From Candidatus Agathobaculum stercoravium (GTDB lineage Bacteria; Bacillota; Clostridia; Oscillospirales; Butyricicoccaceae), in contig DXIC01000178.1 of assembly GCA_019113065.1 (NCBI GenBank), forward strand, positions 1 to 34,396: a DNA stretch of 34,396 nt, read 5' to 3'. Of the stretch, positions 29,321 through 32,317 are shown piece by piece. The stretch's first letter is position 1. Every line of letters begins with the position of its first letter. The position numbers and the translations under genes were made by a program. The notes beneath the pieces are model-generated. The model made no database searches. It was not told where the DNA came from and was given only the letters and a program-made list of their open reading frames with translations.

Positions 29321-30769
29321 TCAGAACCGGAAATCGCGCCGGTTGGAGCTGTAAATATCCGCGATATGCTCCCGCGCCAGCGCGCGCACCCTGTCGTTCG
29401 GGATTTTCTCCAGCTCGCGCCCGATCAGCGCCATGCCGTTCTGCTTTGTGCCCTCCGAGGCGTAGTCGACCAGATATTCCGCCAGCGTCATCAGGGCATT
29501 CGGATGGCAGCAGTTTAGGATCTGCCCGCTTTTACACAGGCTCATAAACCGGTCGCCCGTGCGCCCCTCGCGGTAACAGGCTGTGCAGAAGGATGGGATG
29601 TAGCCCAGCTCCATCAGCCAGTTTACCACCTCGTCCAGCGTGCGCTGGTCAGCCACATCGAACTGCTCGGAGTCATGCGGCCGCTCCTCCTCGGTGTAGC
29701 CGCCGACCGAGGTACGCGAGGCGCCGCTGATCTGTGAAATCCCCAGAGTGAGCGCCTTTTCACGCACCTGCTGGCTCTCCCGCGTGGAGATGATCATGCC
29801 GGTATAGGGCACTGCAATGCGGATGCACGCAATGATCTTTTCAAACAGCCCGTCGCTCAGGCTGTTATCAAACACGTCCGGATCGATGTCGTCCGCATGC
29901 TTGACGCGCGGCACGCTGATCGTGTGCGGGCCGACGCCGTGCACTGCCTCCAGATGCTCGGCATGCATCAGCAGGCCGGCAAACTCGTACTGGTATCCTT
30001 CCAGCCCGAACAGCACACCCAGGCCCACGTCATCGATGCCGCCCTCCATTGCGCGGTCCATCGCCTCGGTATGGTAGGCATAGTCATGCTTGGGACCGGT
30101 CGGGTGCAGCTCGAGATAGCTCTGCTTGTGGTAGGTCTCCTGAAACAGGATATAGGTGCCGATCCCCGCTTCTTTCAGCTTTCGGTAATTTTCCACTGTG
30201 GTCGCTGCAATGTTCACATTGACGCGGCGGATGGCGCCGTTTTTGTGCTTGATGCTGTAAATCGTGTTGATGCATTCCAGAATATATTCGATCGGGTTGT
30301 TGACCGGGTCCTCGCCCGCTTCGATCGCAAGGCGCTTATGCCCGAGGTCCTGCAACGCGATGACCTCGCGCCGCACCCCCTCCTGCGTGAGTTTTTTGCG
30401 CGTAATATGCTTGTTTTTTGCGTGGTACGGGCAGTAAACGCAGCCGTTGATACAGTAGTTGGACAGGTACAGCGGCGCAAACATGACAATACGGTTGCCG
30501 TAAAATGCGAGCTTGATCTCCTCCGCAAGGCGGTACATCTCCTCCACCTTTTCCGGGATGTCGCACGCCAGCAGGACGGACGCCTCGCGGTGCGTCAGCC
30601 CTGCGCAGCGCACGCCGCCTGCGGTCTGTTTTGGCCGCGCCTTTTCCAGAATGCTGTCAATGAGCGGCAGGTTATGCTTGTTCTCTTCTGCGTAACGGAT
30701 GGTTTCGAGGATCTCCTCATGGTTAATGAATTCCTCAGCACGGAGGGATTTGGGGTTGTAGGTTTCCAT
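29321..30769 (-). CDS. hydG: [FeFe] hydrogenase H-cluster radical SAM maturase HydG
   Basis: METYNPKSLRAEEFINHEEILETIRYAEENK..., LYLSNYCINGCVYCPYH (CxxxCxxC), C-terminal CTACYREGRTGDRFM. ATG 30769 preferred over TTG 30778. Confidence 0.97.
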   Translation of the reverse strand: METYNPKSLRAEEFINHEEILETIRYAEENKHNLPLIDSILEKARPKQTAGGVRCAGLTHREASVLLACDIPEKVEEMYRLAEEIKLAFYGNRIVMFAPLYLSNYCINGCVYCPYHAKNKHITRKKLTQEGVRREVIALQDLGHKRLAIEAGEDPVNNPIEYILECINTIYSIKHKNGAIRRVNVNIAATTVENYRKLKEAGIGTYILFQETYHKQSYLELHPTGPKHDYAYHTEAMDRAMEGGIDDVGLGVLFGLEGYQYEFAGLLMHAEHLEAVHGVGPHTISVPRVKHADDIDPDVFDNSLSDGLFEKIIACIRIAVPYTGMIISTRESQQVREKALTLGISQISGASRTSVGGYTEEERPHDSEQFDVADQRTLDEVVNWLMELGYIPSFCTACYREGRTGDRFMSLCKSGQILNCCHPNALMTLAEYLVDYASEGTKQNGMALIGRELEKIPNDRVRALAREHIADIYSSNRRDFRF

Positions 30770-30828
30770 TGGTGTCAATCTTCCTTTCTCTTGCGGTCAG
30801 AATGCTCTTTCCGTCAGATTACTCTATT

Positions 30829-31881
30829 TCAGCCGGCCGCAGCGTCGCCCCGGCCGGTGACGACGCGCAGCCCGATTGCCGACATACGTTGTTCCAGCTC
30901 CGCCACATGCTGCGCGGACTCCGCGCCGCTGTGGATTTTGCCGTTATACAGGCTGTACTTCTCCCGCGCCGCGGGCGGGGACAGGTTGGGCATGACCACG
31001 TTTGCGCCCGCCAGCATCCCCTGCTCCCGGCCATCCGGCCGGAGGGTGCCGAGCGCGGTCGTCGCGGGCAGCAGCAGCGTGGGCTGGATCAGCCGGAGGA
31101 GTGAGAGCAGATACAGCGTCAATTCCACGCTGCCTGCCGGTTCGTTTCCAAACGGCGTATCTTTATGCGGGATGAACGGGCCGATACCGCACATTGCCGG
31201 TGCAAACTGCTCGACATATTTCAAATCCTCTGCCAGCATCTGCGCGGTCTGGCCGGGCGAGCCGACCATAAAACCGCATCCAACCTGAAACCCGATTGCT
31301 TTCAGGTCGCGCAGGCAGCGCATCCGGTTATCAAATGACATTTCCGGCGGATGCAGGCTCGCATAATGCGCCCTGTCCGCGGTCTCGTGCCGCAGCAGGT
31401 AGCGGTCTGCACCTGCGTCGAACATCGCCTGATACGCCTCCGTCGGATATTCCCCAAGCGAAAGCGTGACCGCGCAGTCCGGGAATTCATCTTTGATCGA
31501 CCGCACCAGCGCGCACACAGCGTCTGCCGGGAATGCGCTGTCCTCCCCGCCCTGCAACACAAAGGTGCGGAATCCGAGGCCGTATCCCTCGCGGCAGCAG
31601 GACAGGATCTGCTCCGGCGTCAGCCGGTAGCGCACGCACTGCCGGTTGGTGCGGCGGATGCCGCAGTACAGGCAGTCGTTCCGGCAGATGTTGCTGATCT
31701 CGATCAGCCCGCGGATATACACCGCGTCCCCATAGACGTGCCGCCGCGCGCGCATCGCCTTTTCCGCCGCATAAGCCGCCGCCTGTTGCGTGCGGTTTAG
31801 CAGCAGCTCTGCATATTCCTCCAAGGCAAGTGCATGTTCCTGCTCCAGCCGGTCAAGCAGCTGTTTTGTGCGCTCATTCAT
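30829..31881 (-). CDS. hydE: [FeFe] hydrogenase H-cluster radical SAM maturase HydE
   Basis: 350 aa, RGLIEISNICRNDCLYCGIRRTNRQCVRYRLTPEQI, TFVLQGGEDSAF. Confidence 0.96.
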   Translation of the reverse strand: MNERTKQLLDRLEQEHALALEEYAELLLNRTQQAAAYAAEKAMRARRHVYGDAVYIRGLIEISNICRNDCLYCGIRRTNRQCVRYRLTPEQILSCCREGYGLGFRTFVLQGGEDSAFPADAVCALVRSIKDEFPDCAVTLSLGEYPTEAYQAMFDAGADRYLLRHETADRAHYASLHPPEMSFDNRMRCLRDLKAIGFQVGCGFMVGSPGQTAQMLAEDLKYVEQFAPAMCGIGPFIPHKDTPFGNEPAGSVELTLYLLSLLRLIQPTLLLPATTALGTLRPDGREQGMLAGANVVMPNLSPPAAREKYSLYNGKIHSGAESAQHVAELEQRMSAIGLRVVTGRGDAAAG

Positions 31882-32131
31882 CGCCGGTCACATTGGAATA
31901 CGCGGTTTTGACGCTGATCCCGTGCAGATTGCCGATCTTGCCGGAGAGCGCGGAAATCGTATCCTGCGGCGCGTCAATCGCAATCGATACGATATTGATC
32001 CCCTTCTCCCGGTAAGGGATACCCATTCTGCCGATGATGTACTGCCCATAGGTATGGAGCAGGGCGTTGAGCTGCTCGACGGAATCCATATCCTCTACAA
32101 TGATCCCCATGACTGCTACCCGTGTTTTCAT
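31874..32131 (-). CDS. TM1266-type iron-only hydrogenase system regulator-like protein
   Basis: 85 aa, MKTRVAVMGIIVEDMDSVEQLNALLHTYGQYIIGRMGIPYREKGINIVSIAIDAPQDTISALSGKIGNLHGISVKTAYSN; first gene of the hyd maturation cluster. Confidence 0.9.
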   Translation of the reverse strand: MKTRVAVMGIIVEDMDSVEQLNALLHTYGQYIIGRMGIPYREKGINIVSIAIDAPQDTISALSGKIGNLHGISVKTAYSNVTGDE

Positions 32132-32158
32132 ATCCTCACCTGCCGTATTATTTTCATA

Positions 32159-32203
32159 TTCAAAAATAAAAACTGGCTGCACCCAAAAACGGTGCAGCCA
32201 GTT
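32159..32203 (-). terminator. Leader terminator (attenuator) upstream of the hyd maturation operon
   Basis: Minus strand AACTGGCTGCACC-GTTTTTG-GGTGCAGCCAGTT followed by TTTATTTTTG; 13-bp perfect stem, 28 nt before the TM1266-like ATG. Confidence 0.85.
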
Positions 32204-32283
32204 CGTGGTATTTCCTGCTTTTGGCGGCACCTTCCACGCAGATCCCGCCGGAGCAAAATCTTAGTGTCAGGATGCTTTCCTGC
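32204..32283 (-). promoter_or_regulatory. Candidate cis-regulatory RNA (aptamer-like leader) for the hyd maturation operon
   Basis: Sequence between predicted TSS and terminator. It contains GGCGG/CCGCC, UCCUG with two alternative CAGGA partners, a possible CGUGG/CCACG pseudoknot, and GGUGCCGCC able to pair with terminator strand GGCUGCACC (8 of 9 bp). Confidence 0.5.
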
Positions 32284-32288
32284 TTTTT

Positions 32289-32317
32289 ATTATACGCGGG
32301 AAAGGCCGCAAAATCAA
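32289..32317 (-). promoter_or_regulatory. Sigma-A promoter of the hyd maturation operon
   Basis: Minus strand TTGATT (32317-32312) - 17 nt - TATAAT (32294-32289), 29 bp after the MATE stop codon. Confidence 0.75.

Follow-up and report, generated by a model that had tools for sequence, protein, structure and literature searches.

A conserved hairpin as a candidate cis-regulatory RNA of [FeFe]-hydrogenase maturation genes in Clostridia

In the window (the whole 34,396-nt stretch of DNA analysed here), an intrinsic terminator separates a promoter from a set of [FeFe]-hydrogenase maturation genes. The minus-strand gene order TM1266-HydE-HydG-HydF, first named by an annotation made from the sequence alone (hereafter the first-pass annotation), is borne out by family-profile scores, every one well over the NCBIfam cut-offs. 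The closest named relatives of the window's TM1266 protein, at 88-94% identity, are from uncultured Agathobaculum; the window thus belongs to an Agathobaculum-type genome. The operon comprises:

32289-32317, minus strand: sigma-70-type promoter, TTGATT-17-TATAAT (TTGATT at 32317-32312, TATAAT at 32294-32289), with 10/12 consensus matches
32170-32204, minus strand: intrinsic terminator of 14 pairs, with a T tract after the hairpin, to about 32161
31874-32131, minus strand: TM1266-family gene (NikR-sensor fold), candidate regulator, with its ATG at 32131; TIGR03959 and PF21699
30829-31881, minus strand: hydE; TIGR03956, 539 bits
29321-30769, minus strand: hydG; TIGR03955, 925 bits
28106-29308, minus strand: hydF; TIGR03918, 543 bits

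For hydG, comparison with relatives favours the ATG at 30769 over the listed TTG at 30778. The promoter is present on the minus strand as the first-pass annotation had claimed; so are the terminator hairpin and its T tract, with 14 pairs counted in place of the 13 bp reported. From its position between the promoter and TM1266, the terminator would act on the hyd operon, again in agreement with that reading.

The leader hairpin and its relatives

A DNA similarity search with the whole leader returned one plausible relative, at 69% identity. Because the whole leader is too divergent for BLAST, Clostridia leaders were gathered through TM1266 protein homologues, and the motif was found in them by eye and by pattern; the homologous loci are mostly from metagenome-assembled genomes. 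Leaders before TM1266, hydE or hydG carry an element of about 35-45 nt with the consensus YCU-GA-(3-4 bp)-NA-RG...CY-GX-(3-4 bp)-NA-AGR. As read in TM1266 leaders, it is YCU-GA-(C N N)-NA-(A/G)G, a variable hairpin, and C(U/C)-GX-(N N G)-AA-AGG. The stem consists of two G.A-containing 2x2 internal loops, 3-4 bp apart, beneath the variable hairpin. Two covariance models, R1 (built from other species, without the window sequence) and R2 (with both window copies in its training set), were used for searching; their E-values are rough. The elements in the window are:

32227-32271, minus strand: hairpin copy 1, in the leader; R1 29.6 bits, E 2.1e-6 (rough)
32271-32269 with 32232-32230, minus strand: P1 of copy 1, CCU/AGG, conserved stem
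32266-32264 with 32237-32235, minus strand: middle helix of copy 1, CAC/GUG, conserved stem
32261-32258 with 32243-32240, minus strand: P2 of copy 1, AGAU/AUCU, conserved stem
32223-32231, minus strand: GGUGCCGCC, common to the P1 3' strand and the antiterminator, pairing with its own terminator arm
30786-30818, minus strand: hairpin copy 2, in the hydE-hydG gap, adjoining the hydG Shine-Dalgarno; R1 22.4 bits, E 2.5e-4 (rough)

Since both copies served to train R2, its scores for them (33.2 and 33.1 bits) carry no independent weight; a whole-genome search with R2 yields no further copy. Copy 2 is absent from the first-pass annotation. Copies at both places are also carried by the cultured Agathobaculum butyriciproducens DSM 100391 (L051). 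The gap motif was also read directly in 11 other loci, typically as UCU-GA-CGG-AA-AGA...UCU-GA-CCG-NA-AGA followed by AAAGGA and the hydG start, and R2 gives further gap candidates at equal distance from hydG. An exact 12-base direct repeat, AAAAGCAGGAAA (32287-32276 and 32222-32211, minus strand), flanks the leader motif.

Comparison of the homologues indicates that the hairpin is a conserved structured RNA, covarying beyond its sequence background. When 30 diverse members are aligned by MAFFT blind to structure, 91.8% of cells are paired, double-change cells number 30 against a shuffled mean of 9.6, and the covariation score is 0.267 against 0.109 for shuffled and at most 0.085 for slid versions. 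An alignment of 91 distinct sequences, made by fitting to the model and so biased in its favour, contains 94 double changes (24.9 when shuffled), distributed over 9/10 pairs; over both alignments, the covariation score spans 0.27-0.29, compared with 0.11-0.12 for shuffled and at most 0.086 for slid versions. Compensatory pairs occur at the outer position (C-G/U-A/A-U), in the middle helix (A-U/G-C/U-A), beside it (U.G/C-G/G-C/U-A) and at the base of P2 (A-U/G-C). One stem position is most often occupied by U.G, a pair that speaks for RNA and against a DNA operator. The mismatch positions N and X vary together: a purine at one goes with a purine at the other, and likewise for pyrimidines (Fisher p 8e-4 over 51 cores, kinship ignored). 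Each strand of the stem nearly repeats the other in direct orientation, and the two pair together (7.2/11 positions identical against 3.0 when columns are shuffled, 0/2000), so the two similar G.A loops, 3 or 4 bp apart, make up a two-fold target. Homologous leaders upstream of TM1266/hydE/hydG in related Clostridia, implied by the first-pass proposal, thus exist, and their pairs covary.

Folding energy gives a different picture of the core. Against shuffled sequences, the 118-nt leader is 5.6 sd more stable, an excess due mostly to the terminator; the 80-nt part ahead of the terminator has z = -2.6. The window's minimum-energy fold, at -27.1 kcal/mol, lies 1.8 kcal/mol below the conserved fold (-25.3 kcal/mol) and does contain the nested helices UCCUG/CAGGA and GGCGG/CCGCC described in the first-pass annotation. 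As the conserved core, these helices are rejected: relatives conserve CCU/AGG, CAC/GUG and AGAU/AUCU (32271-32230), and the conserved fold is preferred here because conservation, not energy, decides.

Judged by its matches, the hairpin is conserved across many gut and rumen Clostridia and is not a single-genome feature. Applied to 397 genomes of the order and 392 of the class, R1 returns 40 distinct matches of at least 27 bits, 38 of which precede TM1266, hydE, hydG, aspA-hydF or a HydE-containing operon; of the remaining two, L150 sits at a contig end and L165 looks like chance. For L165, as for L167, that judgement comes from genomic context. The motif stands directly before hydE at L131, L138, L140 and L159, directly before hydG at L161 and L166, and ahead of aspA and then hydF at L188. 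At L187 (G436 contig 18) it precedes TM1266 and then a membrane protein, with no adjacent hyd genes; this membrane protein has no Pfam/NCBIfam match and is transporter-like by eye. At L186 (G374 contig 60, 1000-9500) the operon under the motif encodes a FecCD permease, a FecE-like ATPase with a C-terminal TM1266 domain, HydE (513 bits), a NifH-like protein and two NifD/K-like proteins; by its gene content, this is a nitrogenase-like system coupled to HydE. Genome G1170 has two copies, each with its own terminator, before TM1266 and hydG. In the phylum sample the motif is rare: 3 other genomes out of 399 have it at a rough E<=0.005, and in one of these the match is weak and adjoins masked sequence. 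No copy is detectable in most hydE+ genomes of the order, so the operon can work without the motif.

Terminator and Shine-Dalgarno arrangements

The 3' strand of the stem, GAAAGGNGC, doubles as a pairing partner of the terminator 5' arm. In the window, the duplex between the motif 3' strand and this arm amounts to -14.5 kcal/mol, in line with the first-pass claim that the GGUGCCGCC segment can pair there. A terminator-like hairpin is found in 70/76 leaders, 16-107 nt past the motif, and the 3' strand pairs with the arm of its own terminator at a mean of -11.1 kcal/mol, as against -8.6 kcal/mol with the arms of other leaders (0/5000 permutations as low, kinship ignored). Without the common GGUGC class the values are -10.8 and -7.9 kcal/mol (0/5000), and shuffled strands pair with the arm at -6.1 kcal/mol. 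Stem and antiterminator therefore use the same nucleotides; the permutation results support the mutual exclusion of hairpin and antiterminator, and with it the OFF logic, that the first-pass annotation had put forward.

A second arrangement would act on translation signals: at L166, L168, L217, L218 and L220-L222 the P1 3' strand lies within the hydG Shine-Dalgarno, mostly AAAGGTGG. In either arrangement, holding the stem folded is predicted to repress expression. A TATAAT-like box (at least 5/6) lies upstream in 68/76 leaders, usually 6-22 nt from the motif; shuffled sequence yields such a box in half of cases, and the informative part is the clustering of distances. Because these distances cluster just upstream, the motif is probably the first structure in the transcript. 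A terminator between the promoter and the first gene, combined with an exclusive alternative pairing, gives the locus the sequence hallmarks of a cis-acting transcription attenuator.

Searches of Rfam 15 returned only implausible sub-threshold matches in the window, where the gathering cut-off was not reached, and nothing credible at E<=1 over the motif in 20 homologous loci. Known riboswitch classes are ruled out by these searches, and the leader falls outside known RNA classes, as the first-pass annotation had proposed; given the conserved covarying leaders, its description of an undescribed cis-regulatory RNA of the riboswitch/attenuator type holds.

Proposed mechanism and candidate effectors

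The hairpin very probably represents a new cis-regulatory RNA family that exerts negative control over [FeFe]-hydrogenase H-cluster maturation genes, a rating that concerns the RNA-level mechanism and not the effector. An effector would stabilise the stem and thereby block the antiterminator; the terminator would then form, and transcription would end ahead of TM1266-hydE-hydG-hydF (OFF). Copy 2, when folded, would hide the hydG ribosome-binding site by the same logic. The effector could be a TM1266 dimer seated on the two-fold stem, and its binding might require prior loading with a metal or an H-cluster-related ligand.

Readings in which no stem senses an effector fare poorly. The two similar 11-nt blocks near the -10 box might form a direct-repeat site, downstream of the promoter, that a DNA-binding repressor recognises, with the terminator belonging to the upstream MATE gene, but the blocks are 3 to over 25 nt apart across loci, the intervening hairpin covaries and has common U.G pairs, the terminator arms match the motif 3' strand, and copies occur inside the operon, at hydG; this DNA-operator reading is rejected on pairing grounds and is extremely improbable. 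An intrinsic terminator is indeed present, and the window's minimum-energy fold differs from the conserved one, as would suit unregulated terminator read-through (lower basal expression) or a leader-peptide attenuator with a small ORF sensing translation. The strong covariation and the co-variation with the terminator arms argue against both, no conserved ORF was noticed on looking over the aligned cores, and core length varies freely, which leaves this explanation highly unlikely.

The balance is much closer between a directly bound ligand and a protein. A small-molecule or metal riboswitch, in which the ligand, be it Fe(II), SAM, an H-cluster intermediate or a by-product, docks directly on the stem and its two G.A loops and, by stabilising the stem, brings about termination, has a substantial chance of being right, if less than an even one. 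The 5'-most position, the terminator and Shine-Dalgarno platforms and the conserved purine-rich internal loops are typical of riboswitches; the motif is tied strictly to one biosynthetic pathway, aspA included, and TM1266 is often not adjacent to it (L131, L138, L159, L161). The stem is, however, very simple and nearly two-fold, without a junction, pseudoknot or conserved loop, and TM1266 is always in the genome. This co-occurrence, the pseudo-dyad of the stem and the NikR-sensor fold favour autogenous leader control, in which a TM1266-family dimer would bind the stem and repress its own and other hyd operons. That reading deserves the same credence as the riboswitch: TM1266 is the single likeliest named effector, though short of probable, a directly bound small ligand or metal is its equal in likelihood, and another protein accounts for the rest.

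TM1266 is encoded in every genome with an R1 match of at least 23.5 bits, even where the motif lies elsewhere. R1 matches of 19.6-22.3 bits in six TM1266-less genomes are at chance level. The co-occurrence rests on few informative genomes: 6/86 hydE+ genomes are TM1266-, and the motif is found in 0/6, a small sample. The motif before TM1266 with no adjacent hyd genes (L187) and before the operon with the TM1266-ATPase fusion (L186) speaks for TM1266, and the fusion itself, to a FecE-like ATPase in G374, is as expected of a sensor domain. The length of the middle helix also follows the protein: one TM1266 subtype goes with a 3-bp helix (77 loci), other subtypes with a 4-bp one, a tracking that may reflect shared ancestry. 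The TM1266 model superposes on NikR metal-sensor domains with a TM-score of about 0.75-0.86. Against this stand the wide occurrence of TM1266 in genomes without the motif, its slightly acidic character (net charge about -1, with no excess charge in motif genomes) and the lack of an RNA-binding function on record.

TM1266 domains also occur in long open frames of 353-508 aa (G052:C19:2800-3021, G123:C19:2733-2954, G116:C7:44274-44501, G177:C3:17737-17964 and G227:C10:6177-6404), those of G052 and G123 close to hydE. They are probably further ATPase fusions, the annotated case being that of G374 alone. A second TM1266 paralogue, with 52% identity, is encoded in the same genome as the window (G000 contig 121, 2531-2761), with no copy of the motif found near it; a similarly divergent TM1266 is encoded in most other genomes of that genus.

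In its fullest form, the TM1266 proposal holds that this stand-alone NikR-type sensor domain binds the two-fold RNA stem rather than DNA, and that loading with a metal or an H-cluster precursor shuts its own operon at two points, the terminator and the hydG ribosome-binding site. So spelled out, it is offered tentatively, as a somewhat worse than even prospect suggested by the sequences. Of comparable novelty would be, alternatively, a riboswitch sensing an organometallic intermediate of the H-cluster directly.

Significance and known systems

The regulation of [FeFe]-hydrogenase maturation is little known; in the open-access literature, no paper was found on RNA-level control of hydE/hydG/hydF or on TM1266 function. 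The hairpin may have been listed earlier, unnamed, among 3161 human-microbiome RNA candidates (PMC8040213). Its defined size (about 35-45 nt), its presence twice in the operon, a predicted OFF mechanism and a sensor protein as candidate effector make it a concrete handle on this regulation. The identity of the effector would show what cells monitor in H-cluster assembly, be it iron, an intermediate or a loaded sensor, and would aid the control of biological hydrogen production.

Several known systems bear a likeness to the hyd leader. Terminator-type riboswitches, with SAM-I as the textbook case, resemble it in that a regulatory stem in the leader shares a strand with the antiterminator, with an OFF logic that is inferred here; the hyd hairpin differs in having one symmetric stem, free of junctions and pseudoknots, and no Rfam match. 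The RAT of the BglG/LicT systems is a short stem with two internal loops that acts on a neighbouring terminator and is bound by a dimeric protein. The hyd stem is also short, with two internal loops and a terminator nearby, but whereas the RAT stem overlaps and blocks its own terminator (ON), the hyd stem would compete with the antiterminator (OFF). RAT membership is rejected, the motif and the terminator being 16-107 nt apart with no overlap with the 5' arm, and no BglG/LicT-type protein gene was seen beside the hyd operon. HutP is a small ligand-dependent protein that acts on the hut mRNA leader; TM1266 would be its analogue, although the RNA signals are different and HutP antiterminates. 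Finally, the C-terminal sensor domain of NikR is the fold on which the TM1266 model superposes (via TM1266, PDB 2nzc); unlike NikR, TM1266 comes without a DNA-binding domain.
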